A DNA stretch of 38,155 nt from the NCBI RefSeq assembly GCF_001467945.1, contig NZ_LNYQ01000013.1:1056507-1094661 (forward strand). The letters run 5' to 3'. The notes below the pieces were generated by a model. It saw nothing but the letters and a program-made list of their open reading frames with translations. It searched no databases and was not told where the DNA came from. The stretch is from Legionella parisiensis (lineage in GTDB: Bacteria > Pseudomonadota > Gammaproteobacteria > Legionellales > Legionellaceae). Of the stretch, positions 252-18,538 are shown one piece after another (positions within the stretch are counted from its first letter, which is position 1; each line of letters starts with the position of its first letter). The position numbers were made by a program, and so were the translations under genes.

Positions 252-296
252 TGGTCGGGACGGAAGGATTTGAACCTTCGACCACTAGCACCCCAT
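252..296. repeat. Left attachment-site repeat (tRNA-Pro 3' fragment)
   Basis: These 45 bases are identical to 18494-18538 and comprise, on the minus strand, the anticodon-loop end, T arm, 3' acceptor strand and encoded CCA of tRNA-Pro. Identity stops at both ends (the next bases differ), so this is a duplicated attachment core and not a whole tRNA gene. Confidence 0.9.
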
Positions 297-338: not shown

Positions 339-425
339 AAGTATCATTAACTTATTGTATTTTCTTAATTTTTATCATCTGCTATACTTCAAAAAATATC
401 AAACGATTTCATGTGAGATCTCACG

Positions 426-450
426 AAAGTACACCTAGAAGTACACCTAA
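426..450. repeat. Left subterminal tandem repeat (AAGTACACCTAG type)
   Basis: Two tandem copies of an AAGTACACCTA unit sit about 130 bp inside the left att core. The same double unit, in the same orientation with one base changed, is at 18402-18426, about 68 bp inside the right att core. Paired short repeats next to both att cores are what integrase arm-type or excisionase binding sites look like. The left copy precedes the likely int start codon. Confidence 0.55.
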
Positions 451-466
451 TTTTTTAAGTGGTGCA

Positions 467-1681
467 ATGATGGAAAGACAATTTACAGATGCTTATATTC
501 GATCACTAAAACCAAGATCTGCTCGTTACGAAGAGTTCAGAGATGGAGGTTTTGGCATCCGTGTAACCCCAAAAGGGCTAAAGACTTTTCTTTATCGTTA
601 CAGAATCAACGGTCAAAGGCATTTCATCACCATAGGTCACTACCCTGCTATGAGTTTATCGGAAGCGAAGAAACGTTTTATCGATTTAAGCGACATACGC
701 CATGGCGAAGTAAATCCCAAAGAGCAGATCGCAGAACAAAAACAGAAAGACCAAAGTACCGTAAAAAATCTGATACTCCACTGGTACACCAACTACATTG
801 AAAAACACCGCGCCCAACCACTGCAAGTCTGGCAGCACATCAAAATAGACATCATCCCCTTATTAGGCAATAAGAAGCTGGAACACTTAAAAACTCGTGA
901 GATAACTCAAGCCCTAGATAAAATTGTAGGACGTGGCTCCCCTGTTCATGCCAACAAAGTCTTAAGCACACTAAAACAAGCATTCAACTACGCAGTCAGC
1001 CGAGGCGAAATGCTACTAAACCCTGCCATGACCATACGAGCCAGAGACATAGGTGGTATAGAAAAACCCAGAGAACGCTATTTAACCCTCGATGAAGTAA
1101 AAACACTATGGCAATTCCTCGACAGCGAAGAACATGGCACCTCTTTTCAAATTCGAGCAGCTCTGAAAATCATCCTGCTAACAGGCGTAAGAACGGGAGA
1201 AATCCGAGTAGCCAAATGGTCAGAATTCGATTTTGAAAACTCCTTATGGACTATCCCAGCCGAGAATACCAAAACCAACATAGTCATGAGAATTCACCTC
1301 ACGGAAATAACCAAAAAGGTATTGAGAGAACTCAAAGCACACAGCGATTCAGAATACGTCATTACAGGCGCAGACGATCGAAGTATTTTATCCGACCGAG
1401 CTATGCCAAGAGCAGTAATCAGAATACAATCACGAGTAGGCATCCCCCACTGGACAGCTCACGATTTAAGACGCACTTTTGCAACTCAGCTTGGTGAAGC
1501 TTTGCATGTTGATCCGGTGGTGATTGAGAAATGTCTTGGACATAAAATGCCGAAGATCATGGCAACTTACAATAAGAATGAAATGTTGCCTCAACGGAAA
1601 GAAGCTTTAAATGCCTGGTCAGAGCTTATTGAAAATATGCAGCAAGAAAATGTAGTAATAATCCAATCTAGAACCGCTTAA
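467..1681 (+). CDS. P4-type tyrosine integrase
   Basis: Site-specific recombinase that should integrate and excise this element at tRNA-Pro. The N-terminus (FTDAYIRSLKP, DGGFGIRVTPKGLKTF) is the DUF4102 arm-binding domain of P4-type integrases, followed by a SAM-like core-binding domain and the catalytic domain. Catalytic residues are visible: Arg in TGVRTGE, His and Arg in AHDLRRTF, His in LGHK and the nucleophile Tyr in ATYNK. Length is about 404 residues, normal for the family. The frame stays open to a GTG at 413, but that extension encodes only the tandem repeat at 426-450. I place the start at ATG 467 (or 470), where the conserved domain begins; no strong ribosome-binding site decides it. 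No frameshift is seen. Confidence 0.93.
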   Translation: MMERQFTDAYIRSLKPRSARYEEFRDGGFGIRVTPKGLKTFLYRYRINGQRHFITIGHYPAMSLSEAKKRFIDLSDIRHGEVNPKEQIAEQKQKDQSTVKNLILHWYTNYIEKHRAQPLQVWQHIKIDIIPLLGNKKLEHLKTREITQALDKIVGRGSPVHANKVLSTLKQAFNYAVSRGEMLLNPAMTIRARDIGGIEKPRERYLTLDEVKTLWQFLDSEEHGTSFQIRAALKIILLTGVRTGEIRVAKWSEFDFENSLWTIPAENTKTNIVMRIHLTEITKKVLRELKAHSDSEYVITGADDRSILSDRAMPRAVIRIQSRVGIPHWTAHDLRRTFATQLGEALHVDPVVIEKCLGHKMPKIMATYNKNEMLPQRKEALNAWSELIENMQQENVVIIQSRTA

Positions 1682-4583: not shown

Positions 4584-4662
4584 AAATCATATTGGGTTAA
4601 TATTCAAACCAAAAGCAAATCGCAAATGGTTACAATTTATAACCGGTTGAAAAAGATAAACC

Positions 4663-4679: not shown

Positions 4680-4854
4680 AGTTAAAAATTAACTTCATAT
4701 ACGTTCAATTAATAACAACTGCAAAAAACCTTTGACAAAGAATCTGACTTGAATAAACATCATCAATAGATAGCCATTAAACTAAACTTTCACCACAATT
4801 TTTTTAACTCCCCAAATCAATGAGCATAACTCCGTCCAAAACAAGGCCGACCTT

Positions 4855-4889
4855 AACCCGACACATCAACCCGGCACAAACCCGACATA
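4855..4889. repeat. Three AACCCGRCAYA direct repeats
   Basis: AACCCGACACA (4855-4865), AACCCGGCACA (4868-4878) and AACCCGACATA (4879-4889) are close-spaced direct repeats about 370 bp upstream of the replication-like gene, a second iteron-like set. Confidence 0.65.
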
Positions 4890-5252
4890 GGAAGATTCAG
4901 TACTAGCAAGGAGAGAAAGCCTGTCGAATCTAAAAACCAGACAAAGCAAAACTCTCTAGGCCGACCCACCTCATAACTCCAAAATCTGTTTTTTATGTTT
5001 TTACGCGCGCGAGGAAAAAATTTTTAAACAATTTTGAACAAAAATAACCAATTACCAATGCAAAAACTTTCCAGTAAAAAAAATAAGGTTCATTTAATAT
5101 CATTTGCTATCAAACCCATTTCCCCTATTGACACTCTCAACCAATTTCCTAGAATGAATCAAGTTTAATGCATCTTGGTTATCTAAATGTCATCGATTGA
5201 TAGTATTTGATATCAATTGAAATAAAAATACAGGGTTACAACAGGAGTAAAA

Positions 5253-5957
5253 ATGGATTTCTTATTCGTCACCACATACGAACTGGACGCACTAAGCGAA
5301 ATCCCTCTCATGCAAAGAGTGGTCTATCTCATGGGCATCCGCCCCTACATGGACAGAAAAACGTTCATGGTAGGCATTAAACGCAAAATCAGTTACCAGT
5401 CACTGAGAGAAACACTTTATGTCGCCCCCATCAAAGGCGTAAAAACAGGCTGCCCTAGCCATCAACAAATGAAACGCGTAATTAAATCTCTGGCACGCCA
5501 AGGCATTATAGAAATTTGCTCAACAAACAAAAACCTCATAGTGAAATGTCTTCTGGCTAATCCATATGAGCCGATAGAGATTGAAAATGAATCTCAGCCT
5601 GAAAAAAGTCCATCAATCCAAGCAAAACAGAATCAATCATCATCACCAGAAAATCTGAAATCAATGAAAACCGAAAAACCAGCTTATTTACCAAAATCAG
5701 CAATCAAAACCCAACCCAGCAGTAATCTAAAAGATCTATATCAAAAATTCGAACAATTCTGGCAACTCTACCCTCTACCTAGTTATAAGTCCGAAGCATG
5801 GAAGCAATTTCAGCAAATCGATCCTGATAAGGGGCTTTTTGCACAGATCATGGATGGATTACAAGAGCAGTTAACTAAAGTTAATCGTTCAGGAGCTTAT
5901 TGGCCTTATCCTGCTAGTTGGTTGGGACAAAAAAGTTGGTGTGGTAATAGAGTATGA
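5253..5957 (+). CDS. Putative replication/DNA-binding protein of the element
   Basis: A 234-residue protein. Residues 1-105 look like a winged-helix domain (MKRVIKSLARQGIIEI is a typical recognition-helix plus wing pattern). Residues about 110-160 are a polar Ser/Lys/Pro linker. The C-terminal part (FEQFWQLYPLPSYKSEAWKQ, then YWPYPASWLGQKSW) matches the small conserved end of phage replication and replisome-organiser proteins (FWxxYPxxxxKxxA...P.TWL). A clear AGGAG lies 8 bases before ATG. It follows the iteron-bearing region, which supports a replication-initiation role. The family is not one I can name with certainty. Confidence 0.6.
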   Translation: MDFLFVTTYELDALSEIPLMQRVVYLMGIRPYMDRKTFMVGIKRKISYQSLRETLYVAPIKGVKTGCPSHQQMKRVIKSLARQGIIEICSTNKNLIVKCLLANPYEPIEIENESQPEKSPSIQAKQNQSSSPENLKSMKTEKPAYLPKSAIKTQPSSNLKDLYQKFEQFWQLYPLPSYKSEAWKQFQQIDPDKGLFAQIMDGLQEQLTKVNRSGAYWPYPASWLGQKSWCGNRV

Positions 5958-6084
5958 AGATTACTACAAGAAGCTTAAAACTATGGCGAGTGTACAAACT
6001 CAGTATTCTGGTTGCTTAGCATATACTTGCAGCATATCATGGAGGTATTTTATCACGTGGTAATATAGGCCGACAGGAAAGATT

Positions 6085-8400
6085 ATGCGAATAAGTTTTA
6101 TAGAAGTTCAGAATTTTAGAAAACTGAAATCTATTCGAATTGATTTATCAAAAAATAGAACCCTGTTTGTTGGAGCAAATAACAGTGGTAAAACTACAGC
6201 AATGATTGCTCTACGCCGATTTCTTGTCGATCAAAAATTTAATGCCTATGATTTCACACTTTCGAACTGGACACAGATAAACAAAATCGGTGCAAAGTGG
6301 GAAAAAGCAGATATAACTCCTCTCGACTTGACTGAATGGGAAGGTACTCTTCCCTTAATGGATGTATGGTTAGATGTTGAACCAAATGAAATTCACTACG
6401 TGCAGCACTTGCTGCCAACTTTAGATTGGACGGGTGGTTTGTTGGGGGTCAGACTGCGACTAGAACCTAAAAAACTGGAAGAGTTGCATAACGAATATGT
6501 TGTTGCCCGGCATCATGCCATTAGTACCATTAATTCAGCCAAACAAGACAAAGACAGAGATTATAAAGTTCCCCTCTGGCCGTCTTGTATGAAAGATTTT
6601 CTGGAACGTAGTCTAAGCAGTAGGTTTCGTGTGCATTCTTACATTTTAGATCCTAATAAACTTGTTGCCCCGAAAAATGGCTCGGCACAACCGCAATTAT
6701 TATCACCAACTGCGGAATATATGGAGGAGAACCCTTTTGCAGGCCTCATTCGTATTGATGAAATCAATGCTCAAAGAGGTTTTTCAGATGCTCATAGTAA
6801 TGGGGACTCATTTTCTGAAAGAGGAGAAGAGAACATCGGACGCGGCGACACACGCAAATTATCCAACCAACTGCGGTCATATTATGATAAGCACCTTGAC
6901 CCATCCGAAATGCCCGAATCAGGTGACGTGGATGCATTAGAAGCTATTCACGAAGCACAAGAGATATTTGATAAAAAGCTGGCCACGAGTTTTTCAGAAG
7001 TATTAAAAGAGGTTCAAAATCTTGGCTATCCCGGGATCAGCGATCCAACGTTGACTATTTCAACACGTATAAAACCAATGGATGGTCTTAATCATCCTTC
7101 TGCACTTCAATACGAAGTCATTTCTAACTATGAAGACGTACAGGGAATACCACCTAGATTGCCAGAACAATATAACGGTTTGGGTTATCAAAATTTGATT
7201 TCGATGGTTTTCCGCCTAATGAGCTTCCGTAATGAATGGATGCAGGTAGGTAAGATTGGAAAAAAAGCGATTACCAAATCGAGCGAAACAGCTTTTCCGC
7301 CACCACTGCATTTAGTACTTGTTGAGGAACCCGAAGCACATTTGCATGTACAAGTTCAGCAAGTTTTTATTCGCCGCGCATATGAGATACTGCGTAATCA
7401 TCAAGACTTGAAAGAAAATAGAACACTGACCACCCAACTAGTAGTCTCCACGCATTCAAGTCATATTGCTCATGAATGCGAATTCGAGTGCTTACGATAT
7501 TTTCGACGTAAGCCTGCGAGCAATCCTGGTGATGTTCCAACATCTACAATTATTAATCTTTCCGAAGTATTTGGTAAACAGGACGAAACTGCAAAATTTG
7601 TTACCCGCTATCTAAAATCAGCGCATTGTGACTTGTTCTTTGCTGATGCTGCTATTTTTATCGAAGGTGCGGCGGAACGAATGATGATTCCTCATTTCAT
7701 TCGAGAAAACTTCCCCAACTTAAATCAAAGATATTTAACCTTGTTAGAAATTGGCGGAAGCCATGCTCACTGTTTCCGGCCACTTATCGAGCATTTAGGA
7801 CTAACTACGCTTATCATTTCAGATATTGATGCAGCAGAAAACAAAGGCCGTAAGCCTTCTCAACCTATTGTGAAAGGTGGAAATCAAGTTACACGCAACA
7901 CCACTCTGCGAACCTGGATACCAGGTAAAGAATCGATTGATGATCTTTTAGATTCAGCTCCCTCCGATAAGATCAAAATCTACTCTGAGGCAAATTTCTT
8001 GGTACGAGTCGCTTATCAATTACCGCTAAAAATCACTCTTGATCCCTCTGCTGGAGAGATAAATATAGCTGCCAACACTTTTGAAGATGCTCTAGTGTAT
8101 GAGAATATTGACCTGTTTAAAACCTTGGAAGGCAACGGCCTGGTCAAGAAGTTCAATGAGGCCTTGAACCAAAACAAAACTCCTGCTGATCTAACCACAG
8201 CGATGTTTGAGGCTTTGAAATCAGGAAGCAAAGCAGAGTTTGCACTTGATTTACTCTTTTTAAAAGACCCAAAAGTATTCAATGTTCCAACTTATATTCG
8301 AGAAGGTTTGGAATGGCTACAAGAGCAGGTATGTAATAAGGAAGAGGTATCTGAAAATATTAGCCTCTCATCCTCGGATCAGGGAGGAGTTGCGCAATGA
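6085..8400 (+). CDS. gajA: GajA-like OLD-family ATPase-nuclease
   Basis: Nuclease subunit of a Gabija-type (class 2 OLD) antiphage system. The N-terminus has an SMC/ABC-like ATPase with Walker A GANNSGKT (residues 30-37), a signature-like GLGYQNLISMVF and Walker B LVLVEEPEAH at about 412. The C-terminal TOPRIM domain shows the acidic FIEGAAE (about 524) and SDIDAA (about 578). At 771 residues it is longer than B. cereus GajA (about 580), with extra sequence at about 130-280 and at the C-terminus. AGGAAAG precedes ATG. It overlaps the helicase gene by 4 bp (ATGA), so the two are translationally coupled. In characterised Gabija, nucleotide depletion triggers GajA to cleave DNA; activity here is inferred. 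Confidence 0.9.
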   Translation: MRISFIEVQNFRKLKSIRIDLSKNRTLFVGANNSGKTTAMIALRRFLVDQKFNAYDFTLSNWTQINKIGAKWEKADITPLDLTEWEGTLPLMDVWLDVEPNEIHYVQHLLPTLDWTGGLLGVRLRLEPKKLEELHNEYVVARHHAISTINSAKQDKDRDYKVPLWPSCMKDFLERSLSSRFRVHSYILDPNKLVAPKNGSAQPQLLSPTAEYMEENPFAGLIRIDEINAQRGFSDAHSNGDSFSERGEENIGRGDTRKLSNQLRSYYDKHLDPSEMPESGDVDALEAIHEAQEIFDKKLATSFSEVLKEVQNLGYPGISDPTLTISTRIKPMDGLNHPSALQYEVISNYEDVQGIPPRLPEQYNGLGYQNLISMVFRLMSFRNEWMQVGKIGKKAITKSSETAFPPPLHLVLVEEPEAHLHVQVQQVFIRRAYEILRNHQDLKENRTLTTQLVVSTHSSHIAHECEFECLRYFRRKPASNPGDVPTSTIINLSEVFGKQDETAKFVTRYLKSAHCDLFFADAAIFIEGAAERMMIPHFIRENFPNLNQRYLTLLEIGGSHAHCFRPLIEHLGLTTLIISDIDAAENKGRKPSQPIVKGGNQVTRNTTLRTWIPGKESIDDLLDSAPSDKIKIYSEANFLVRVAYQLPLKITLDPSAGEINIAANTFEDALVYENIDLFKTLEGNGLVKKFNEALNQNKTPADLTTAMFEALKSGSKAEFALDLLFLKDPKVFNVPTYIREGLEWLQEQVCNKEEVSENISLSSSDQGGVAQ

Positions 8401-10304
8401 AAGATGTCCTTGCTGCATATGATAATAATATTGATGATAAGGCGGACACTGAAATAATAGATTGTCTTAGTTCGCAAACACCAAAAAGTTTTTTCCTATT
8501 TGCTGGGGCAGGTTCAGGAAAAACACGTTCTCTTATTAAAGCATTGCAGTACCTTCAAACCAACCATAGCAGGTATCTTCGACTTTATGGAAAACGTGTC
8601 GGCGTTATCACATATACGAATAAAGCATGTGAGGAAATTAAACGGCGAACAGGTTTTGACCCAATGGTTAAGGTTTCAACCATCCATGGTTTCGTATGGA
8701 CTTTAATCCAAGGATTTAATGAAGATATAAAGTCGTGGCTTAAAGTTGAATTAGAAAATGAGATTACTGATTTACGAGAAAAACAAGATAAAGGGCGTGG
8801 TGGCAAAGCTAGTATTGATCGTGAGAAAAGTATTGAAGCCAAGACAAGACGTTTAATCTCATTAGCTGAAATAAGGGAGTTTACCTACAATCCTAACGGT
8901 GAAAACCATGGACGTGATTCTCTTAACCACAGTGAAGTTATTAAGATATCTGCTGCTTTTCTTATTGGAAAGCCAGTTATGCAACAGCTTCTCATTAATA
9001 AATTCCCAATTCTTCTGATTGATGAGAGCCAAGACACTAATAAAACTTTAATGGATGCCTTTTTTTTAGTTCAAGCCCAGCATCCCGTTGAGTTCAGGCT
9101 GGGCCTATTTGGTGATATGATGCAGAAAATTTATGCAGATGGCAAAGCCGATCTTGGTCAGAATCTCCCTGCAGATTGGGCGAAACCAGAGAAAGTAATG
9201 AATCACCGTTGCCCTAAAAGAATAATTACTCTGATAAATAAAATCCGAACAGATGTAGATAAGAAAGAACAAAAACCTCGAACAGACGCAGCAGAAGGAA
9301 TTGTAAGATTCTTTATTTTAAAGGCAAGCTCTCCCGATAAAATAGCTGCTGAAAAGTTAATTGCAAGCAAGATGGCAGAAATCAGCGGAGATATTGCATG
9401 GAATAAGCCACAAGAAGTTAAGACGCTTATTCTTGAACATCACATGGCAGCAAAGCGGATGGGATTTCACGATATGTATGAACCCCTTTACCGGAACGAT
9501 GCTCTTCGTATTGGATTATTGGACGGTACTCTAAGTGGCTTGAAATTTTTTACTGACCGCGTTCTACCACTTGTGGAAGCGCGAATGATAAATGATGCCT
9601 TTGCTGTTGCAGCTATTGTAAGAAAGCATTCCCCGCTTTTAAGCAAGCCCATGTTAAAATCAGTTGGCGATAAACAACCTGCGCAAATTCAAAAAACCAA
9701 AGAAGCAGTGGAATCTCTTTGGAAGTTATGGGAAGGAAATAAAACACCTAGATTTATAGACATTCTTCGTAATGTTGCCAAAACTAATCTTTTTGAAATT
9801 CCTGAAAGCTTACAACCAATTGCTTCTCGGAGTGATGAACAACAACTACTTGCTGAGGTGGAAACTAAGAAAAGAATAGAAGACCACCGGGAAAATGAAA
9901 CGGTTCTGGACAACTGGGATGAATTCCTTCTTACATCATTCGATCAGGCTAAATCTTACGTTGATTATGTGAATGATAGGGCCAACTTTGATACTCATCA
10001 AGGTGTTAAAGGACTGGAATTTCCCCGAGTCATGGTAATCATTGATGACAGTGCCGCAAAAGGATTTCTTTTTTCTTACGAAAAACTTTTTGGTGTTAAA
10101 GCAAAAACAAAAAGTGACCTGGAGAATGAAGGTGCTGGGAAAGAAACAGGGATAGAACGAACGCGTCGGCTTTTCTATGTTACTTGTAGTCGTACCAAAG
10201 AAAGCCTAGCTATTGCAGCATATTCAAATAATCCTCAAGGCATTAAACAACATGTCATCACTCAAGAGTGGTTTGCGGAAAATGAAATAGAAATAATTGA
10301 ATAG
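8397..10304 (+). CDS. gajB: GajB-like UvrD/Rep-family helicase
   Basis: Superfamily 1 helicase partner of the OLD nuclease. Motifs in order: Q/Walker A FLFAGAGSGKT (about 32-42), Ia GVITYTNKACEEI, II ILLIDESQDT, III LGLFGDMMQKIY, V THQGVKGLEFPRVMVI and VI RRLFYVTCSRTKESL. At 635 residues it is larger than B. cereus GajB (about 490). The only gene it is coupled to is the OLD nuclease, and that pairing defines class 2 OLD/Gabija loci. In the known system GajB senses DNA ends and promotes GajA activity. A hairpin right after the stop closes the transcript. All helicase motifs look intact. Confidence 0.9.
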   Translation: MKDVLAAYDNNIDDKADTEIIDCLSSQTPKSFFLFAGAGSGKTRSLIKALQYLQTNHSRYLRLYGKRVGVITYTNKACEEIKRRTGFDPMVKVSTIHGFVWTLIQGFNEDIKSWLKVELENEITDLREKQDKGRGGKASIDREKSIEAKTRRLISLAEIREFTYNPNGENHGRDSLNHSEVIKISAAFLIGKPVMQQLLINKFPILLIDESQDTNKTLMDAFFLVQAQHPVEFRLGLFGDMMQKIYADGKADLGQNLPADWAKPEKVMNHRCPKRIITLINKIRTDVDKKEQKPRTDAAEGIVRFFILKASSPDKIAAEKLIASKMAEISGDIAWNKPQEVKTLILEHHMAAKRMGFHDMYEPLYRNDALRIGLLDGTLSGLKFFTDRVLPLVEARMINDAFAVAAIVRKHSPLLSKPMLKSVGDKQPAQIQKTKEAVESLWKLWEGNKTPRFIDILRNVAKTNLFEIPESLQPIASRSDEQQLLAEVETKKRIEDHRENETVLDNWDEFLLTSFDQAKSYVDYVNDRANFDTHQGVKGLEFPRVMVIIDDSAAKGFLFSYEKLFGVKAKTKSDLENEGAGKETGIERTRRLFYVTCSRTKESLAIAAYSNNPQGIKQHVITQEWFAENEIEIIE

Positions 10305-10341
10305 TCTAGTCAAGCCCCATATAGTCAGTGAATCTAAATTT

Positions 10342-10376
10342 CTAACAAAAAGTGATTTGTTAGGTGTTTAATTTTT
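10342..10376. terminator. Hairpin terminator between gajB and the convergent membrane gene
   Basis: CTAACAAA (10342-10349) pairs perfectly with TTTGTTAG (10356-10363) across a 6-base loop, followed by a T run at 10371-10376 on the plus strand. It ends the gajAB transcript and overlaps the last codon of the minus-strand gene. Confidence 0.6.
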
Positions 10377-10959
10377 TACATTCCGATAAATATTGTTTTC
10401 TTAAACTGTTACGGAACTTAAGGCCAGCTTTAATCTTTATTTTTTTATCTAGTGACGTTTTTATGTATGCTCTAAATGTATAAATACAAAAATAAGTCAT
10501 CACTTTGTTTTTTCTAAAAATAAATTTATCTGGTTCACCATTAATTTTCATAGTACGGAATATATCTGGCGCATGATATATATTAACACTTCGCCCATCA
10601 TCTAAATAAAAGTCATCGTTAGTTCTAGGATTAAATTTCGCATATTCATTGTACATATAACTAACATCAATTATATATTTCTGCCGACTTAATATGTGGA
10701 CATGCCACAATATACTGGGATTAATAATTGCGGCTCTTTTTCCTATATTTGTAATATTTATAGTGTAAGCAAATCTGTTTAAAATACTGGGGTTTTCTTC
10801 CGAAGGTAGAATATAATTAGAAAACTTTGCTTTTATTCTTAACTTACTATCGCTGATAGTGAGCCACAATGCAATACAACCAACAATCAACGTGCCAATT
10901 GCGGATATGCTCTCAATAACATCATGGAAATTAATATTTATTAAATAATCCTTTAGCAT
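10360..10959 (-). CDS. Membrane-anchored protein of unknown function
   Basis: A 199-residue protein with one hydrophobic segment at about 19-36 (IGTLIVGCIALWLTIS). The rest is a polar, aromatic-rich soluble part that looks mainly beta-stranded, with a basic C-terminus (KKIKIKAGLKFRNSLRKQ). I do not recognise the family. It is convergent with gajB and faces away from the recombinase leader. Proteins of this shape (one TM plus small soluble domain) are frequent next to antiphage genes, so it may be a membrane effector or cargo, but nothing in the sequence shows an activity. Confidence 0.7.
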   Translation of the reverse strand: MLKDYLININFHDVIESISAIGTLIVGCIALWLTISDSKLRIKAKFSNYILPSEENPSILNRFAYTINITNIGKRAAIINPSILWHVHILSRQKYIIDVSYMYNEYAKFNPRTNDDFYLDDGRSVNIYHAPDIFRTMKINGEPDKFIFRKNKVMTYFCIYTFRAYIKTSLDKKIKIKAGLKFRNSLRKQYLSECKKLNT

Positions 10960-11004
10960 ACGTAATATCCTTATTTGCTAATTTTCATTCTATTTAAGCA
11001 TATC

Positions 11005-11040
11005 TTCTGCGTCACGGCATAAATATGCAGTGACGCAGAA
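11005..11040. other. Strong 36-nt hairpin upstream of the ribozyme
   Basis: TTCTGCGTCAC (11005-11015) pairs perfectly with GTGACGCAGAA (11030-11040), and inside it GCAT pairs with ATGC around AAAT, with one base opposed on each side. No T run follows on either strand, so it is not a typical terminator. It may terminate weakly, protect an RNA end or mark a recombination site. Confidence 0.6.
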
Positions 11041-11171
11041 ACTCATATTAAATATTTAATTTTAAAATCAATAAATTAACCCTATCAATTCTATCCCACA
11101 CCACAGGATTGAACAAAATATTCCTCCCAAACCTATTGCTCCCAGATCTTGCCTTTGCTAAATTTTTCATA

Positions 11172-11223
11172 AGCATAACTGATGAGCCTGTGCAACTCAG
11201 GCGAAACCTTAGGGTCTTATGCT
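11172..11223 (+). ncRNA. Type I hammerhead self-cleaving ribozyme
   Basis: All conserved core positions are present. Stem I pairs AGCATAA (11172-11178) with TTATGCT (11217-11223), 7 bp, open-ended. The core CUGAUGA is at 11179-11185. Stem II pairs GCCUG (11186-11190) with CAGGC (11198-11202) over a 7-nt loop. GAAA is at 11203-11206. Stem III is A-CC with GG-U around UUAG (11206-11215), including the required A15.1-U16.1 pair. The cleavage nucleotide is C (GUC), so cut is predicted between 11216 and 11217. Stems II and III are closed by loops and stem I is open, which makes it type I. It lies about 0.3 kb upstream of the paired recombinases on the same strand. Promoter not identified. Confidence 0.85.
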
Positions 11224-11547
11224 AAGCCACTCTCATCCCATAACCTGTGGCTGGACGTCTAGTCGGGAATCTGTAGTTCTAGGATAGGCTACCATCGGGT
11301 AGATAAGTTAATAATCACTTCTTTATTAACCATGGATCAGCGGCAGCTGCTGTTGGATTGCCGTGCGTTTTTGTATTTAAACAATAAGGAGATAAACCAC
11401 TAAAAAACCGTTGTACCACAATAATCATTAACCTTGATTTGCCCCACTATTTCGAGCCTTGCAGCGCAAGCTGGATATCCTCTTTGAGTGAATCGCTCGA
11501 TTAACACTAAACCAAAGACAGGGCAAATAAATTGATTGAATAAAATT

Positions 11548-12357
11548 ATGCGCAAACACTCTTTAAGACAAATAGCAAGCCAGTATCTGGATCATGATAA
11601 TAGCGGTAGCCCTCGTGGTAAAAAATATCGTCGCTTTGTTATTCTTAGGATGATTGACGATCTCTTTGTTCTTGGACTTGCACCATCCAATTGGCCAGGT
11701 TTGACTTCAATCCAGTTGCAACAACTGATTCAACATTGGCATAAGAAAAAGGTTAAGCCTTCTACTCTCATGAATTACATGACCATCATCCGAAAATTTC
11801 TAAACCATGTGGGTCATACTGCTGAAAATATTGATAATCACAGTCTTGGTTTGCAAACTAAGAAAATTAAGAAGAAAACTCGGAAATCCCCTGATGATAT
11901 AATAGAGAAGATCAATGACCCTGTTGCCAAAATCCTTTTGGGCTTCCAAATTCATTTTGGTTTGACCTTGAGCGAAGCCATGCGAATTTTGCCCGGGGTA
12001 CATATTCAAGAACATGAATTATTACTAACACGAGAAATCACTTTTAATAGCAAAGATAGGAAGATTCCTATTCGCTCCGAAGCTCAAATAAAGCTTATAC
12101 AAGATTTTAATCTATTAACCCAAGGGAACAGCTGTCTTATCGCCACTCATGGTTATAGAGCTATCTGTTTTAGCTGGCAAAAGGTCATGAAGTCCTTAAG
12201 GCTCCCTGGAAAGAAATGCTGGCGTTATCTTTATGCCCAGCAATTAAGTTCAAAATTATCATCTCAAATATCCCATTACCGTTTGTCCTTACTCATCATG
12301 GATGAAATGGGTCTGAAATCCCGTACCACACTTTGGAGTTATCTCAATGAGCAATAA
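11548..12357 (+). CDS. Degenerate tyrosine recombinase (first of an overlapping pair)
   Basis: About 269 residues from ATG 11548; an in-frame TTG at 11536 is an alternative start and neither has a good ribosome-binding site. It has an N-terminal SAM-like core-binding region (STLMNYMTIIRKFLNHVG) and a C-terminal half that aligns by eye with the catalytic domain of the next gene. The box I Arg is replaced (FGLTLSEA against FGLRREES), box II keeps Arg but not His (KCWRYLYAQ against HGIRHAYAQ), the last His is Leu (MGLKSR against LGHSR), while the Tyr of WSYL is kept. It is therefore probably not an independent recombinase but a structural partner or accessory DNA-binding subunit. Its end overlaps the next start by 11 bp. 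Confidence 0.75.
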   Translation: MRKHSLRQIASQYLDHDNSGSPRGKKYRRFVILRMIDDLFVLGLAPSNWPGLTSIQLQQLIQHWHKKKVKPSTLMNYMTIIRKFLNHVGHTAENIDNHSLGLQTKKIKKKTRKSPDDIIEKINDPVAKILLGFQIHFGLTLSEAMRILPGVHIQEHELLLTREITFNSKDRKIPIRSEAQIKLIQDFNLLTQGNSCLIATHGYRAICFSWQKVMKSLRLPGKKCWRYLYAQQLSSKLSSQISHYRLSLLIMDEMGLKSRTTLWSYLNEQ

Positions 12358-13243
12358 ACTACGTAGCGCACTTTACTCAGTACACCAATTAATCAGACAG
12401 ATGCAGGGTTATTCCTATGCCAGCAAGGCAGATATGAAACATATGATTAACCGCTGCATGAAAGACCTGCATGAGTTGGGTTTTAAAGTTGGCCATTTAA
12501 ATGGCTTAAAGCCCAAACATATTTATGTGCTTGTTGAACATTGGAAAAAACAGGGTAAGAGTCCCGCAACTATCAAGAATTATATGTCCAAACTGCGTAA
12601 ACTCGCTTATTTTCTGGATAAGCCTAAACTGGTTAAAACTGGTAATGACTCCTATCAAATTGATAAGCGCACTTATATTCCTACTCAAAATAAAGCCATC
12701 CACCATATCGATTTAAATTTATGTACCGATCCGCACATACGCCTTTCACTTGAAGCACAAATGCTTTTTGGCCTACGAAGGGAAGAATCCATGAAATTTG
12801 TAGTCAGTGAAGCATGGCATGGTGATTGTTTGCATATCAAACCCAGTTGGACAAAAGGCGGTATCGGTCGATTGCTTAAAATCACCAATGAAGAGCAAAT
12901 GAAATGGCTATTAAAAGTCTCGCAACAAATTAGACGGGGTGAATCATTAATCCCTGCAGAAAGAACCTATAAGCAACATTTAAGTCATTATCAACAGCAG
13001 GCTAAGTTAATGGGTGTCTGTAAATTACATGGTATCCGTCATGCTTATGCTCAACGTAGATATATCGAATTAACGAAACAGTTAGATCCTTTAAATATAG
13101 GTTTGAGATGTCCAATTGCTGGGGGAAAAACAGCTCAAGAGCTAAGTCAAATAGAGAAAAAAATCGATAAACAGGTTAGAGCAATGATCAGTCGTGAACT
13201 TGGCCATTCACGTATAAATATCACCAGAACTTATTTAGGTTAA
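12347..13243 (+). CDS. Tyrosine recombinase with complete catalytic set (second of pair)
   Basis: A 298-residue recombinase whose ATG lies within the end of the preceding gene, so it is translationally coupled. It has an N-terminal core-binding domain (SPATIKNYMSKLRKLAYFL). Catalytic residues are Arg144 (FGLRREES), probable Lys170, His228/Arg231 (HGIRHAYAQ), His287 (LGHSR) and Tyr296 (RTYLG) three residues from the C-terminus. It resembles the phage-integrase N-terminal/Integrase_1 families seen in proteobacterial elements. Overlapping recombinase pairs and trios have been described as bipartite modules and RIT elements. Its target site is unknown. A diverged fragment of the same C-terminus lies at 14785-14862. 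Confidence 0.85.
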   Translation: MSNKLRSALYSVHQLIRQMQGYSYASKADMKHMINRCMKDLHELGFKVGHLNGLKPKHIYVLVEHWKKQGKSPATIKNYMSKLRKLAYFLDKPKLVKTGNDSYQIDKRTYIPTQNKAIHHIDLNLCTDPHIRLSLEAQMLFGLRREESMKFVVSEAWHGDCLHIKPSWTKGGIGRLLKITNEEQMKWLLKVSQQIRRGESLIPAERTYKQHLSHYQQQAKLMGVCKLHGIRHAYAQRRYIELTKQLDPLNIGLRCPIAGGKTAQELSQIEKKIDKQVRAMISRELGHSRINITRTYLG

Positions 13244-13257
13244 CTGGACTAATTATG

Positions 13258-13833
13258 TTACACCTCGCTAACAGAAGCAGAGTTAGCTGCTTTATAGTGA
13301 TCAAGCATTTCATTCCATAATAATTGAATATTAGCTCTTGAAATAGGAATATTAGTTACATTACTGGATAGAAACCCAGCGTGCTCACATGAGTTTACAA
13401 ATGAGAATAACCCATCAAAATACCCCTTAATATTTAAAAAACCTATGGGTTTTATTAATTCTCCAATTTTTATAGCGTTCCATGTCTCAATTGCTTCTTC
13501 TAGCGTTCCAAGGCCACCTGGCATCACAACAAACATATCAGATATTTTTTGCATTATGGCCTTACGTTGTTGCATGGAATCTACAATATGTAATTCATCT
13601 AATATTTTTAAAGGCTTTTCTTGTTCAATAAGATGATTAGTAATTATCCCTACTACCCTTCCGCCATATTCTTTTACAGTATTGGCAAGAAGCCCCATCA
13701 TCCCTAGACTTGAACCACCATAAACTAACGTAAAACCATCAGCAGCTATTTTTTTACCTAATAAAATCGCTGCATCACTATATTCATTATCATTACCAAA
13801 TTGAGCACCCAAATAAACGCAAACAGTTTTCAT
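13258..13833 (-). CDS. LOG-family protein (cytokinin-riboside-phosphate phosphoribohydrolase type)
   Basis: A 191-residue Rossmann-fold protein of the TIGR00730/LOG family. It shows the N-terminal VCVYLGAQFG, the nucleotide-binding LVYGGSSLGMMG, MQQRKAIM and the signature MPGGLGTLEEAIETW. LOG proteins hydrolyse the N-glycosidic bond of nucleoside 5'-monophosphates, releasing ribose 5-phosphate. Older lysine decarboxylase annotations of this family are wrong. The start is ATG at 13833. It is convergent with the recombinase pair, ending 14 bp from it. Being inside the element, it is either ordinary metabolic cargo or part of a nucleotide-based defence; the sequence does not decide. Confidence 0.9.
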   Translation of the reverse strand: MKTVCVYLGAQFGNDNEYSDAAILLGKKIAADGFTLVYGGSSLGMMGLLANTVKEYGGRVVGIITNHLIEQEKPLKILDELHIVDSMQQRKAIMQKISDMFVVMPGGLGTLEEAIETWNAIKIGELIKPIGFLNIKGYFDGLFSFVNSCEHAGFLSSNVTNIPISRANIQLLWNEMLDHYKAANSASVSEV

Positions 13834-13932
13834 ATAGATCCAGATAATTTCGAAAGAGAATTACAAATATGATGCCATGGTAGGTTAATTTAAGGCTGAG
13901 AGGCAAGCGTAGACTTGGTGCAGCTTACGCGC

Positions 13933-14041
13933 CAATAGGGTCGCTCCTTGCTTTTCCGTCATGTACCTACGGCTTTTGTTTTTCTAATAAAATTTAATTT
14001 CATTGAATTGTTAAAGATAAAGGCAAGACGCGACCCCATTA
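13933..14041. repeat. MITE-like inverted-repeat segment
   Basis: CCAATAGGGTCGCTCCTTGC at the left end is matched on the opposite strand at the right end by TAATGGGGTCGCGTCTTGCC, with GGGTCGC and TTGC exact. The ~110-bp segment has no coding capacity and lies between the starts-and-ends of two minus-strand genes. A small imperfect hairpin (GCGTA ... TACGC) precedes it. It may be a non-autonomous transposon or a repeated Legionella intergenic element. Confidence 0.4.
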
Positions 14042-14064
14042 GCTGATTAAAAAACAAGAGCTTA

Positions 14065-14733
14065 TTATTTAATTGTATTGTTACTATAAAACAAAACTAC
14101 TTGTTCCTGTAAATGTTTTATAAAGCTTTGAAATTGTGAGACGACTTCTGTTAAATAACCTTCGCTAAATATAATTTCATCTCGGGAATACTTTTCCAGA
14201 TTTAAAGTTTGGCTTGTAGAAATGATATTCAAAATATCATTATGTTTATCTATATAACCACCAGCGTGTGAAATTTTATCACGTATTTTATTTATATTAT
14301 TTATTTTATTCCATTCATCTATGTCATCTGGAAAATCAAGTTGTATTACCTTCTTTAAATAAGTTCTTGCACGCTTAATACCTGAACCATACATATCATT
14401 ATATGAAATTTGAGATTCAAGCTCTGATTCAAAACATACGCACAACTGATTCATGAAGTCCTCAAATTTTGCAAAAATTAACTGTATATAAGCTTGTCTC
14501 TGTAGTTGTGGAAAGTTATTTTTAAACTCCGTATATAAATCAACTCTTGATTCAAACGAGTCGATATGAGGAGATAATGCAGGATCGTCAACCTCTAAGT
14601 ATTCGTTATAATCTTGCAAATCCTGAACCCAATGATCATTTGATCTTTTAACAAAAAAATTAAAGTTCTTCAGAAATTCTTGAAAATAGGCAATTTTTTG
14701 TAAGGGTACTAATTGATTTTGATTAGCCATCAT
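14065..14733 (-). CDS. HEPN-like protein, possible abortive-infection RNase
   Basis: About 222 residues, mostly helical and acidic. I see RDKISH followed by GGY at about residues 151-158, matching the R-x4-6-H motif of HEPN domains, which form metal-independent RNases in toxin and abortive-infection systems. The region before it (YIQLIFAKFEDFMNQLCVCF) is a long amphipathic helix typical of the fold. No MNT nucleotidyltransferase or other antitoxin partner is adjacent. The start is uncertain: ATG 14733 has a weak GGA 7 bases upstream, while a TTG at 14745 lacks one. Very AT-rich like its neighbours, consistent with recent transfer. Function is inferred from a short motif and context. Confidence 0.6.
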   Translation of the reverse strand: MMANQNQLVPLQKIAYFQEFLKNFNFFVKRSNDHWVQDLQDYNEYLEVDDPALSPHIDSFESRVDLYTEFKNNFPQLQRQAYIQLIFAKFEDFMNQLCVCFESELESQISYNDMYGSGIKRARTYLKKVIQLDFPDDIDEWNKINNINKIRDKISHAGGYIDKHNDILNIISTSQTLNLEKYSRDEIIFSEGYLTEVVSQFQSFIKHLQEQVVLFYSNNTIK

Positions 14734-14784
14734 TATGAAATCCAATGTTTACATTTATTTAATTATAGTCCTCTGTTTTTTTCT

Positions 14785-14862
14785 TGATCGGCAAGCACGG
14801 CAATTATTAGCCGAAAACTTGGGCATTCGCGTTTGAATATTACTAAAACTTATCTTGGATGA
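14785..14862 (+). pseudogene. Remnant of a tyrosine recombinase C-terminus
   Basis: The plus strand encodes AIISRKLGHSRLNITKTYLG and stops at 14860-14862, closely matching the last 20 residues of the intact recombinase ending at 13243 (AMISRELGHSRINITRTYLG). A one-base deletion near 14798 breaks the frame upstream. The DNA is diverged at third positions, so this is an older paralogue and not a recent duplication. Only the last quarter-hundred codons survive. It marks the probable end of a former second recombinase module. Confidence 0.75.
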
Positions 14863-15112
14863 ATATTGTGATTATAAATTTGATGATCGAACAAAAGTAA
14901 TGGAATTACATTTTAAAAATTGGAGACGCTACACAAACGACGAGTTATTCTCCATTAATATTGGCACCTTGCTTCATTTGAAATAAAGTCAGGCAATTAA
15001 AAATACTCCTAGCTGCAAAATCAACCATACCTACAAGTTTATAAGCAAAACTTCAATTACTGATCTATTATCGAAATAAAACAAATTAATTTTTCAAGTT
15101 TAAAGGCATTCT
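14863..15112. other. Intergenic stretch upstream of the FRG gene
   Basis: Apart from a 28-codon frame (14900-14986, starting MELHFKNWRRY) that may be the tail of a lost gene, I see only AT-rich DNA that should contain the promoter of the FRG gene. No repeats or strong hairpins stand out. Confidence 0.4.
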
Positions 15113-15922
15113 ATGGATATTCAAGACTCAAGGATTGATGCAAGCCATAATACTCCGCAAATTAAATTTAGAACCTGGAGTGCATTTCTAAAATTTATCA
15201 TTAAAAACAAAGACAAACTACAGAATTGTATATTTAGAGGTCAGCGAAACCCAGACTGGTCATTAACACCTACTTTTTATAGAATTATCACTGGAAATAG
15301 GGATGAATCCATTAGGCATAGCAATTTTCATCTAGAAAATTTCAAAAAAAATACACGTGGACGACATACTATCTCGTACACTGATCCAATTGATTTCGAT
15401 GATAACTGGTGGGCTCTTGGTCAGCATTACGGCTTAGCAACTCCACTATTAGATTGGGTATCTTCACCGTATGTAGCGGCTTTTTTTTCTTTTCACAAAG
15501 AAAATTCATTTGCGAAAAGCACTTATCGGTCAGTTCATGTATTAGATTTTGATAAAATTGAAAATATTCTGACAAGCTATAATCGAGGTAACTCAGATCA
15601 GCTGAATGAAATAAGAAGAGTCGACCCATTAACACATGAAAATCAAAGATTAGTTAGTCAGCAAGGTATTTTTACTTTTATTCAGGAAACTAACAATGAG
15701 GATAATTATTCCTCTATTGATAAATACTTAATAACATTTAGAAATAAATTTGCTGAAAATATAGGCGACGAAATTTTGCATTTAAAAATTTTAATTCGTG
15801 AAACAGAAAGGAATAAAATTCTGGAACATCTCGATTTAATGAATATCAATGAATCAACCCTTTTCCCTGATCTAAATGGAGCGGCCGCTTATTGCAACTA
15901 TTTACTGAAAAGGAGGGAATAG
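15113..15922 (+). CDS. FRG-domain protein, putative defence gene
   Basis: A 269-residue protein with an FRG domain in the first ~130 residues: the namesake IFRGQRNPDWSLTPTFYR at about 42-59 and the second motif GQHYGLATPLLDWVSSPYVA with AAFFSF near 105-125. The FRG fold is recurrent in defence islands, but its activity is not established to my knowledge. The C-terminal half (residues 140-269) is Asn/Ile/Glu-rich without a motif I know. It is followed 2 bp later by a one-TM protein with its own strong AGGAGG inside this gene's last codons, so the two make an operon. This suggests a soluble sensor with a membrane partner (inference). Confidence 0.8.
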   Translation: MDIQDSRIDASHNTPQIKFRTWSAFLKFIIKNKDKLQNCIFRGQRNPDWSLTPTFYRIITGNRDESIRHSNFHLENFKKNTRGRHTISYTDPIDFDDNWWALGQHYGLATPLLDWVSSPYVAAFFSFHKENSFAKSTYRSVHVLDFDKIENILTSYNRGNSDQLNEIRRVDPLTHENQRLVSQQGIFTFIQETNNEDNYSSIDKYLITFRNKFAENIGDEILHLKILIRETERNKILEHLDLMNINESTLFPDLNGAAAYCNYLLKRRE

Positions 15923-15924
15923 TA

Positions 15925-16263
15925 ATGTGGATGAATATATCAAATTTCTTTCTCAATAATATAGTTGGTTTCATTGGCATATTTTTTTCATGGCTATTTA
16001 CATACAAGTATTATAAGAAAAGCTTAAATCAGCAAGCCACAGAAGCCAACAAGGAAATAATAAATTTGATAAACCAATCCAATAACCAAACAATCTCAAA
16101 ACAGTATTTGATTGAACAAGCTGTCACAGAATATTTAAAAAAAGGAACTCCTGTGAATTTTATTGATTCTCTTGCCATCTCAAATGAAGAAAAAGCTGAA
16201 ATCTATGATACTGCTGTGCTTAGAGGCAGGGGAAGAGCAGCCAAAAATAATCCTTACCGATAA
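15925..16263 (+). CDS. Small one-TM protein paired with the FRG gene
   Basis: A 112-residue protein. AGGAGG at 15911-15916 places the start at ATG 15925; an upstream in-frame TTG inside the FRG gene is unlikely. Residues 6-25 (FFLNNIVGFIGIFFSWLFTY) form one membrane helix, then a Lys-rich boundary (KYYKKS) implies the remainder is cytoplasmic. Residues about 30-60 are Asn/Gln/Ile-rich and may form a coiled coil. The C-terminus is basic (RGRGRAAKNNPYR). Its spacing of 2 bp from the FRG stop and shared transcript suggest joint action, for example as a membrane effector. I do not recognise the family. Confidence 0.75.
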   Translation: MWMNISNFFLNNIVGFIGIFFSWLFTYKYYKKSLNQQATEANKEIINLINQSNNQTISKQYLIEQAVTEYLKKGTPVNFIDSLAISNEEKAEIYDTAVLRGRGRAAKNNPYR

Positions 16264-16308
16264 TTAAGCAAGCGTAGGTCGGAATAGTCAATTTACCTTA
16301 CTTAAGAA

Positions 16309-18279
16309 TTATATTGTTGGGATGCCAACTTGACTCAGATAGTCATATACAGAATCATAAAATTCCGGCAATCTTGTTTCATCACTCTGATCGCCCTTTG
16401 GAACAAAAATTACCATTCCCTGTCGGGCCCTGGTAAGCAATACCCTGTAGGTATTTAATAAGTACCTTTTGCGTGTTTCATCATTGATGTTTGACCATTT
16501 TGTTCCACTAAATTTTTTGTAACTCCAACCAGTAGCTGTTTTTCTTAAATTTGCATCCCAAGCAACACAGGTCCAATCGAGCTCTAGGCCTTGAATATCG
16601 AATTCGGTAGCGACGTCCTCCAAAAAATTAGATGAACGTACATCATCATGTGGATTTAAAAACCATTGAATTGGATCTATCTCAGACTTAATATGAATTC
16701 CATAAGGTTTTAATCTATATGCTCCTGACGAGGCAATGATGCCCATGCTTTCGGAGCCCCTTGACTTACTTTTAAGCCAATGTTTTGCTATATTGAGATC
16801 TCGTGTTAAAATAATTGGATAGAGTGGATTTAAGTTATCCAGAATTCGTTTGGCATCTTCTAATTGGCAATCTAAAATTGCCTTCACGAACATTGAGAGT
16901 TTCTCTGACCGAAAAGACCTCATTGAAACTGCAAGATGAAGTTCATCCCTTATATTGATTTGACCTTCTCGAAAATCCGAGTAAATATTTTGTCCATTAG
17001 TATACTCAGTATCTGTAAGTTTGTTGGAAACATACACATCCCAATGAGGATAATCTTTTTTTATGGCATGAAACCACTCAGAAAGTCCTGCTTCACCAGT
17101 ATTGATTTCTTGGCCACCGCCAATTAAGCATATAATAATGGACCAATCCTGATGGCGATCCATAACACTAATTAAGAACTCAGGTTCTGACATATCAAAA
17201 TCTGAGATACCTTTTTTTCTTTTCATGAAAAAAGTTGTTTGCTCTAAGGTCCAGGCCCGTTGAGCCTCATCAAATACAGCAACTCGCTCAACAGGAGGAA
17301 GGAAATGCTGAAGGGCATCATCTCTAAAATGATGAATATTCTGTATAAATGCCTTAGTTTTAGATTGTGCTTCCTTTTTGGATATTTTACTTTTAGTTCT
17401 TTTTCCGTCTGCCACTTCATCGCGTGCAAGTGCCTCTTGAAGCACAGCAACCAATGGACCATTACCAGATAAAAACACTGCATGTTCACCGGCATCTATA
17501 TCATGTCGTTCGTTTGCAATGTTAAGGCCAGCAAGAGTTTTTCCAGCGCCAGGAACCCCAGTAATAAAACAAATCGATTTACGATTGTTTAGCTTGGAAC
17601 TATCAATTATCTCTGAAATTGCTTTAGAAGTGAGACTAAGATTAATTGCACCAGAATCTGAACGGGATATTTCTGCAACACTATGCCCTTTATAGAGTGC
17701 TTGTGCAGCTTCAATAATTGTTGGTGTTGGTTTATATATTGAGTCCATCCATGTTTCTGAAATGAGATTAGCAGCTGATATCGACCTCGTAACTTCATTT
17801 ATGATTGCAAGAAGATTTTCCTTATTTGCCCTAAGCGGTGAATATACTTTGTCATTATATCTATCTATATTGTTATAGAAATTCGGTGCATCAGTAGCTA
17901 CTAAAATTGGCACTATATAACGAGAATGGCTTTGTTCGTGAAAATTTTTCAAATCTAAAGCGTAATCTAGCGCCTGGGTTAACGCGCTATTTGTGTATTG
18001 TTTATCCCCTACTTTAAACTCTAAAACGAAGATGATTCCTTTATGAAGAAGGATAACATCCACTCTTTTCCCCATTCTTGGAATAGAGAATTCAAATGCA
18101 ATATAGGAACTCGCTAAGGCTGATCCAATGGTTTTACAGATCTCGATCTGTTTTAACCAAGCGTTGCGCTGTAACTCATCAAGAGAAAAGGAATGGAAGG
18201 TAGATAACTCGCCAAGAATGTAACTTGGGGAGTCTTTGATAAATTGTTCGATGTCAGAAGCATAGTAAGCACGAGACAT
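16309..18279 (-). CDS. PD-(D/E)XK nuclease fused to DUF2075 helicase-like NTPase
   Basis: A 656-residue fusion. Residues about 60-110 carry a PD-(D/E)XK-type site: Asp74 (KRVDVILL), Glu87 and Lys89 (LEFKVG) and a downstream Gln102/Tyr106 (TQALDYAL). Residues 230-640 are the DUF2075/COG3410 P-loop domain with Walker A GVPGAGKT (241-248), Walker B VAVFDEAQRAW (Asp337, Glu338), and a helicase-like C-terminus (LDWTCVAWD, YRVLLTRARQGMVIFVP). Such proteins are found in defence islands and probably act alone on nucleic acid. The gene ends 45 bp from the FRG-TM operon (convergent) and is the last gene before the right att core. No frameshift; both active sites look intact. Confidence 0.85.
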   Translation of the reverse strand: MSRAYYASDIEQFIKDSPSYILGELSTFHSFSLDELQRNAWLKQIEICKTIGSALASSYIAFEFSIPRMGKRVDVILLHKGIIFVLEFKVGDKQYTNSALTQALDYALDLKNFHEQSHSRYIVPILVATDAPNFYNNIDRYNDKVYSPLRANKENLLAIINEVTRSISAANLISETWMDSIYKPTPTIIEAAQALYKGHSVAEISRSDSGAINLSLTSKAISEIIDSSKLNNRKSICFITGVPGAGKTLAGLNIANERHDIDAGEHAVFLSGNGPLVAVLQEALARDEVADGKRTKSKISKKEAQSKTKAFIQNIHHFRDDALQHFLPPVERVAVFDEAQRAWTLEQTTFFMKRKKGISDFDMSEPEFLISVMDRHQDWSIIICLIGGGQEINTGEAGLSEWFHAIKKDYPHWDVYVSNKLTDTEYTNGQNIYSDFREGQINIRDELHLAVSMRSFRSEKLSMFVKAILDCQLEDAKRILDNLNPLYPIILTRDLNIAKHWLKSKSRGSESMGIIASSGAYRLKPYGIHIKSEIDPIQWFLNPHDDVRSSNFLEDVATEFDIQGLELDWTCVAWDANLRKTATGWSYKKFSGTKWSNINDETRKRYLLNTYRVLLTRARQGMVIFVPKGDQSDETRLPEFYDSVYDYLSQVGIPTI

Positions 18280-18493: not shown

Positions 18494-18538
18494 TGGTCGG
18501 GACGGAAGGATTTGAACCTTCGACCACTAGCACCCCAT
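18494..18538. repeat. Right attachment-site repeat (inside tRNA-Pro)
   Basis: Identical to 252-296 over 45 bp. It is the 3' part of the intact tRNA gene, so strand exchange here preserves the tRNA. Confidence 0.9.

Follow-up and report, generated by a model that had tools for sequence, protein, structure and literature searches.

A hammerhead ribozyme at the predicted start of a Legionella operon likely to encode an MpsA-like relaxase

A type I hammerhead ribozyme stands near the head of a conserved gene block in Legionella parisiensis. We analysed a 38,155-nucleotide (nt) stretch of its genome (contig NZ_LNYQ01000013.1, positions 1,056,507 to 1,094,661), here called the window, in which the ribozyme precedes a pair of tyrosine-recombinase-like genes, rec1 and rec2. 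Our reading, which we consider probable, is that the ribozyme sits where transcription is predicted to start in an operon that likely encodes an MpsA-like relaxase next to a putative origin of transfer (oriT), and that it would trim the 5′ end of the transcript. This reading builds on the hammerhead fold, a conserved order of elements, the homology of Rec2 to MpsA, a leader shared with operons for orf64, a single-stranded DNA-binding protein (SSB) and ArdA, and linkage to type IV secretion systems (T4SSs). The block runs from a palindrome through a promoter-like pair, the hammerhead, a pseudoknot, a RAGATH-32 RNA (in most loci) and a RAGATH-13 RNA to the gene pair.

The window contains every part of the ribozyme. 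Stem I, read directly from the sequence, joins AGCATAA (11172–11178) to TTATGCT (11217–11223) in seven exact pairs; the core is CTGATGA plus GAA. Stem II (GCCTG/CAGGC) has 5 bp and a 7-nt loop, and stem III combines an A-U with two C-G pairs, 3 bp in all, under a 4-nt loop. The three helices surround the core with the open end at stem I and the cleavage-site C at 11216. A descriptor of the core and three stems, run at three stringencies on both strands, found this single site in the window and none in 100 dinucleotide-shuffled controls at any stringency. A first-pass annotation of the window had described a complete type I hammerhead with a predicted cut at a GUC site and with stem I arms too exactly complementary to be likely by chance; the complete hammerhead and the position of its predicted cut are as it described.

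Comparison across loci confirmed the fold. The same gene pair is preceded by hammerheads of this design in related loci, a check that the first-pass annotation had proposed; relatives of Rec2 were fetched from 11 Legionella loci. We aligned 43 leaders of two classes (42 distinct rows), with 500 shuffles and slid versions as controls. The core CUGANGA, GAAA and UH, with the A15.1-U16.1 pair, is present throughout, and across the 43 rows its columns are invariant except N7. In the three stems 91.8% of cells are paired, against 79.3% in shuffled and 29–38% in slid alignments; 94 cells carry compensatory double changes against 30.8, and the covariation score is 0.367 against 0.169, values that none of the 500 shuffles reached. 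Ten pairs show changes on both sides, as in 8 of 500 shuffles, and the further pair types are not exceptional (221 of 500). The helices taken singly are 90.8, 97.1 and 87.9% paired, each with compensatory pairs, and the two outermost stem I pairs are broken in 11 and 15 of 42 rows. Together with the following hairpin and pseudoknot, the stems are 93.9% paired with 128 double-change cells (shuffled, 83.3% and 40.9). This comparative evidence establishes 11172–11223 as a real hammerhead fold, with a predicted cut between 11216 and 11217.

The leader recurs throughout the Legionellaceae. A covariance model built from the aligned rows was given 35 loci out of 107 RAGATH-13 matches and found the leader upstream of RAGATH-13 in all 35, 19 of which had contributed no training rows and 16 of which had. 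It matched 62 of 112 Legionellaceae genomes and 7 of 369 genomes of the class. E. coli genomes held no match to the leader. Four of the seven come from other families and score more weakly; one match precedes a Rec1-like protein (L117, 27% identity, E=8e-22; L numbers denote the compared stretches), one precedes SSB (L120) and one lies at a contig end (L119). Weak matches L118 and L124, both from one genome of another family, have no clear partner gene.

The ribozyme sits where transcription is predicted to begin. A promoter-like TTG-N15-18-TA pair ends 3–10 nt before stem I in all 33 gene-pair leaders and in 14 of 15 leaders of the second class described below, compared with 3.8% in shuffled upstream sequence. 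Because this pair is conserved just before stem I, the transcript is predicted to start at or beside the first ribozyme base. Behind the ribozyme, helix 4 of the pseudoknot is 99.2% paired with three compensatory pairs, and helix 5 is 94.8% paired with one.

Two known RNA families complete the leader. The window copy of RAGATH-32 (RF02922) scores under gathering, whereas siblings score above it in 3 of 14 and 20 of 20 loci in two scans (49–105 bits in the 20-locus set), for 23 of 34 sibling loci recognised overall. The Rfam match begins at the 3′ arm of the pseudoknot hairpin (11247), and the 5′ arm and pseudoknot fall outside the model or are unpaired in it. RAGATH-13 (RF02688) occurs on gene-pair leaders in the loci scanned and in the window ends about 20 nt before the first gene. 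Among the 369 genomes of the class it has three matches, all in Legionellaceae, and a literature search under its name found nothing. Here both families form parts of one leader with the hammerhead.

Rec2 is likely an atypical MpsA-like relaxase, as judged from sequence. In Salmonella genomic island 1 (SGI1), MpsA is described in passages of PMC6414798 as an atypical relaxase, required with MpsB for transfer from oriT. A Salmonella record of SGI1 type (L104) encodes a 321-residue homologue with R162, H247, R250, H251 and Y319; since these are five of the five MpsA catalytic residues at their positions given in PMC6414798, we take this protein to be MpsA or an allele. Rec2 is 30% identical to it (E=3e-26), and both match PF12835. 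In the alignment Rec2 keeps the FGLR arginine, the TKGG lysine, HxxRH, LGH and the tyrosine. Rec1 lacks the catalytic Arg-I, Lys and His, and is likely a catalytically degenerate accessory partner. The first-pass annotation had placed the ribozyme in the leader of a recombinase pair; it does lead a gene pair, and the genes more likely encode an MpsA-like relaxase with this degenerate partner.

Two further observations concern these genes. Leaders with a rec1 homologue and no rec2 homologue found nearby occur in L023, L068, L084 and L087; for these a relaxase might act in trans. The Vibrio plasmid pSIO1 (4.9 kb) has a PAGEV RNA (RF03037, L105:348-565) upstream of its MpsA-like gene, possibly another RNA tied to an MpsA-like module.

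The palindrome that opens the block is a candidate oriT. The left flanks of 11 aligned sequences diverge at it, and in relatives about 163 bp separate it from the hammerhead downstream. On its right side, the alignments of six of the eight closest loci (L007-L012) reach to within 15 bp of the Rec2 stop codon, and those of L005 and L006 extend beyond. Elsewhere in the L. parisiensis genome the strict pattern occurs only at other leader copies. Seventeen genomes contain 38 distinct sites, 29 directly before a leader, five further upstream (up to 7.5 kb) and four alone; in two of these four (L088, L089) a weak hammerhead-leader match follows after about 160 nt, and in the other two (L090, L091) none does.

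The palindrome also accompanies MpsA-like genes in other genera. Of 13 non-Legionella plasmid records, seven (two Acinetobacter, Vibrio, two Shewanella, Agrobacterium and Shinella) have a strict GTCAC-core palindrome 390–570 bp ahead of the homologue; several of the seven are related pairs, so that fewer lineages are independent. A further 81 kb elsewhere in those records contains no such palindrome, and 0.005 would be expected per 13. An eighth record (L103, Halioglobus) has the GTCACT/AGTGAC core with a longer spacer. In the SGI1-type record L104 the palindrome is another one, GTCTCT/AGAGAC, and stands 418 bp ahead of the gene, a distance that fits the 304–428 bp implied by the SGI1 oriT and start-codon coordinates in PMC6414798.

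Other repeats lie around the palindrome. Between it and the promoter, at about 11095–11120, is a further inverted repeat, of TTTGTCC..GGACAAA type in many relatives and degenerate in the window, possibly an operator or a part of oriT. In five loci a second palindrome stands upstream of the leader, 0.16–7 kb away (L008:2420/4662, L024:7941/8104, L075:6204/7582, L080:6734/7571, and two in L070, 7 kb apart); in L080 the inverted repeat that follows is copied as well, with one gene in between.

The same leader precedes a second kind of operon. Apart from the gene-pair leader, the fetched stretches contain 15 more hammerhead-pseudoknot leaders, for a class total of 33 + 15. In twelve of these 15 downstream-type leaders the gene directly behind is a homologue of orf64, an open reading frame (ORF) of 64 residues. 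SSB comes next in ten of the twelve, the other two stretches ending first, and ArdA follows SSB directly in eight of the ten; in L022 both SSB and ArdA are Pfam-supported. According to passages of PMC11541004, conjugative leading regions typically carry SSB and anti-restriction genes. A hammerhead with ardA right behind it was already known from three Legionella strains (passages of PMC3088659).

Some leaders depart from this arrangement. Three downstream-type hammerheads stand before genes other than orf64-SSB-ArdA (L071:7628, in minus-strand reading, L083:9930 and L083:10694). An L. israelensis plasmid (L100) has hammerhead leaders at 2329-2438 and 4945-5054, of which one precedes the gene pair and the other an SSB gene, with an AcaB-family regulator beside them.

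The leader is linked to conjugation genes. We searched for the secretion marker TIGR03752 in 17 of 57 RAGATH-13-positive genomes, all Legionellaceae and chosen mainly for few contigs. Merging pieces and dropping three matches of about 22 bits or less left 19 secretion loci, one of which (G388) consists of pieces below the curated cut-off. At 18 of the 19 a RAGATH-13 match lies 11–38 kb downstream on the same strand, two of these 18 matches being below the RAGATH-13 cut-off. On a plasmid of L. adelaidensis the T4SS genes are followed in turn by TraD, the leader, the gene pair, cargo and ArdA. Among the 12 annotated non-Legionella plasmid records (L103 carries no annotation), four list a coupling protein no more than 250 bp downstream of the homologue (L101, L102, L105, L109) and one more lists it within 4 kb (L110); three of the four were tested with Pfam, and all three were confirmed. 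Ninety-one of 138 plasmid records with the homologue are labelled non-mobilizable.

Published work on Legionella islands offers a setting for these findings. Islands with a genomic-island-associated T4SS (GI-T4SS) have, by the account in passages of PMC3864950, no identifiable relaxase or oriT, yet one of them transfers. The same passages place a tandem integrase pair 1–17 kb downstream of 13 of 14 GI-T4SS clusters and report more of the episomal form after deletion of one of the two, for reasons unknown. Position and genus suggest that these tandem integrases are the Rec1/Rec2 genes. The episomal increase fits a loss of DNA processing; it could also mean a role in excision. The block described here is a candidate for the relaxase and oriT reported absent from these islands.

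These results suggest a mechanism in which the ribozyme reshapes the start of the operon's transcript. Transcription would begin at about the first base of stem I, and the ribozyme would cut off the first ~45 nt, that is, itself alone. The cut would swap a 5′-triphosphate for a 5′-OH, 8 nt before the pseudoknot hairpin. With the ribozyme at the predicted first nucleotide, the 5′ end would thus be exchanged and not two messages separated; on this point the first-pass interpretation, a cut in the leader that may set mRNA 5′ ends or process an RNA partner, is corrected. Beyond the start site and the cleavage itself, we infer that the 5′-OH end and pseudoknot would stabilise or time expression of genes for DNA processing and recipient establishment, and that Rec2 would nick the palindrome, acting as oriT.

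Several results weigh against this reading. On the ribozyme, the Rfam check proposed in the first-pass annotation gave a sub-threshold match only: no hammerhead model reached gathering in an 801-nt search (best HH9, 22.2 bits against 52, E=0.0072), or in the sibling loci scanned, gathering being a database cut-off and no biochemical definition. Folding energy is ordinary (z=−0.43) and, being uninformative, was rejected as proof of a ribozyme. Given these two results, the evidence for the ribozyme has to be comparative. The same two results would suit a non-functional relic or a chance hammerhead-like sequence, a highly improbable explanation already contradicted by compensatory changes in all three stems, by the leader-model matches in 35 of 35 loci and by the absence of descriptor matches in 100 shuffled windows. 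The short stem III of the window copy may make cleavage slow.

The operon and its linkage contribute further points of this kind. Among 34 oriented Legionellaceae leader stretches, 28 have both genes, three have rec1 only (L023, L068, L084) and three have neither (L024, L073, L080). The partner and gene order differ from SGI1, where MpsB resembles an N-terminal domain only; Rec1 is full length and comes first. None of the 13 non-Legionella MpsA-like plasmid records (L101-L113) has a hammerhead leader, so the relaxase can do without the hammerhead. The palindrome was not found in five of these 13 (L102, L104, L107, L111, L113), L111 offering 431 bp upstream, and seven of the 12 annotated records list no coupling protein in the fetched stretch. 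One secretion locus, near a contig end (G430 C2:4572), has no downstream leader, three of the 17 genomes have leaders and yet lack the marker, and of the 39 RAGATH-13 matches in the 17 genomes 21 are not near one.

A rather unlikely alternative makes the pair site-specific recombinases (integrases), the palindrome their crossover site and the hammerhead a device that tunes their mRNA. The PF12834 and PF12835 matches and the tyrosine-recombinase catalytic residues agree with it, as do the palindrome's place at the edge of homology between loci and the five loci with a second palindrome 0.16–7 kb upstream. Known crossover cores of tyrosine recombinases have a fixed spacer of 6–8 bp. The gap between the GTCACT-type and AGTGAC-type words, unlike such a spacer, varies from 11 to 31 nt across relatives (13–17 in Legionella stretches), which favours a hairpin or oriT over a crossover core. 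Moreover, the element that carries the window copy has its own integrase and tRNA attachment repeats, coupling proteins adjoin some homologues, and the closest characterised homologue is a mobilisation protein. Second palindromes, and stop codons near the palindrome, had hinted at integron-like cassettes; we rejected these, and the gene-cassette reading is weak, because, among 55 palindromes, the nearest ORF on the left reads the same way in 28 and the opposite way in 21, and is absent in 6. The palindrome as the end of a mobile 2.2-kb unit was also rejected, since in conjugative elements it is internal.

Two other roles for the leader were considered. Tentatively, it could be a trans-acting RNA transfer factor like sgm-sRNA of SGI1, with the hammerhead maturing its 5′ end and RAGATH-13 as the functional domain; that is, the hammerhead possibly matures a noncoding RNA (pseudoknot plus RAGATH-13) that works with the MpsA-like relaxase at a palindromic oriT in conjugation. 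SGI1 requires sgm-sRNA, which is encoded between its oriT and mpsA; the leader has a matching position between an inverted-repeat site and a gene, and passages of PMC9299015 describe cleavages that mature the primary sgm-sRNA transcript. RAGATH-13 on gene-pair leaders, ending so close to the first gene, and the three leaders that persist where neither gene was found also speak for it. No Rfam RNA reaches gathering in L104, so no homology links the two RNAs, and the hammerhead-pseudoknot also precedes SSB/ArdA operons, which points to a general leader role. If true, this proposal would mean that bacterial hammerheads, and RAGATH-13 with them, have a physiological function in DNA transfer, and would provide the relaxase and oriT that the Legionella islands seemed to lack. 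Quite improbable, in our view, is that the hammerhead mainly cuts read-through RNA and so parts upstream cargo transcripts from the operon. In its favour, 19 of the 28 left genes that read in the same direction stop no more than 60 bp from the palindrome; the window's upstream gene is opposed (10360-10959, minus strand), and the promoter-like pair holds its position relative to stem I in both leader classes, which such a role would not need.

The block with a trimmed relaxase transcript, our preferred reading, resembles several known systems in part. The type I hammerheads that Perreault et al. (2011, PMC3088659) describe near bacterial integrases and ardA belong to the same ribozyme class. 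Passages of that paper report that three hammerheads around ardA of Agrobacterium cleave when expressed in E. coli, describe pseudoknots inside hammerheads, and leave the role of hammerheads near integrases and ardA open. In those passages we found no relaxase pair, +1 position, post-ribozyme pseudoknot, RAGATH RNA, oriT-like palindrome or conjugation context. Our literature search on hammerheads with relaxases found nothing on this subject, and for a hammerhead directly before ardA that paper was the only prior art found.

Other likenesses lie on the side of DNA transfer. The SGI1 module of oriT, sgm-sRNA, MpsA and MpsB, as described in passages of PMC6414798 and PMC9299015, shares with the Legionella block an inverted-repeat site, an RNA-coding leader, and an MpsA-like protein with a second recombinase-like protein; unlike that block, the SGI1-type record L104 contained no hammerhead or RAGATH RNA that we could find. 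TcpM and MobK use a recombinase fold as relaxase, and the MobK oriT has inverted repeats near the gene (passages of PMC8152469), a system likened here by description only. As here, the single-stranded Frpo promoters treated in passages of PMC11541004 are leader elements of a special kind, placed ahead of SSB and anti-defence operons in conjugative elements; unlike Frpo, the conserved element here is a ribozyme-pseudoknot RNA behind a double-strand-type promoter.

Hammerheads at the predicted +1 of relaxase-type and SSB/ArdA operons yield a specific, testable hypothesis about 5′ ends. The MpsA-like gene and the GTCACT/AGTGAC palindrome form a cross-genus signature for elements that plasmid typing may overlook.

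Table. Features of the window (positions in the window; a dot in the strand column marks features listed without a strand)
Feature	Position	Strand	Remarks
Type I hammerhead ribozyme	11172..11223	+	predicted cleavage between 11216 and 11217; from sequence, stem covariation and leader model
Predicted -35 element TTGCTC	11136..11141	+	promoter-like pattern conserved in siblings
Predicted -10 element TAAATT	11159..11164	+	17-bp spacing; implied start ~11171-11172
H-type pseudoknot	11225..11268	+	hairpin 11225-11230/11247-11252; loop 11236-11239 pairs with 11265-11268
RAGATH-32-like RNA, diverged copy	11247..11310	+	35.5 bits against gathering 41.8
RAGATH-13 RNA	11433..11528	+	101.1 bits against gathering 80; directly before first gene
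Palindrome TTCTGCGTCACGGC-N8-GCAGTGACGCAGAA	11005..11040	.	putative oriT; left edge of conserved block
Rec1	11548..12357	+	tyrosine-recombinase-like; ATG at 11548, listed ORF opens with TTG at 11536
Rec2	12347..13243	+	MpsA-like tyrosine-recombinase fold; PF12834, PF12835; R/K/HxxRH/H/Y retained
Left attachment repeat, 45-bp copy of tRNA-Pro 3′ end	252..296	.	100% repeat of 18494-18538
Right attachment repeat inside tRNA-Pro	18494..18538	.	
Integrase of integrative element	413..1681	+	PF00589, PF13356, PF22022
Gabija (GajA/GajB)	6085-10304		
PADLOC candidate defence protein PDC-S15	15113-15922		
PADLOC candidate defence protein PDC-S41	16309-18279		

The window copy of the block belongs to a complete 18.2-kb element integrated at tRNA-Pro (252-18538), which carries an integrase, defence genes and the hammerhead block. 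A Pfam scan of its 14 main ORFs of at least 80 residues recognised no type IV secretion gene, so its mobilisation would depend on a conjugative element acting in trans. A 14.6-kb circular plasmid of L. fallonii has a similar gene set, with a rec1-like gene only. Within the L. parisiensis element, 14784-14863 is a remnant of a second Rec2-like gene, its last ~20 codons, present among the compared loci only in the window and L005. We considered this copy of the Rec2 3′ end as an attachment repeat and rejected it, because it occurs only in the window and in L005, which is 98% identical.
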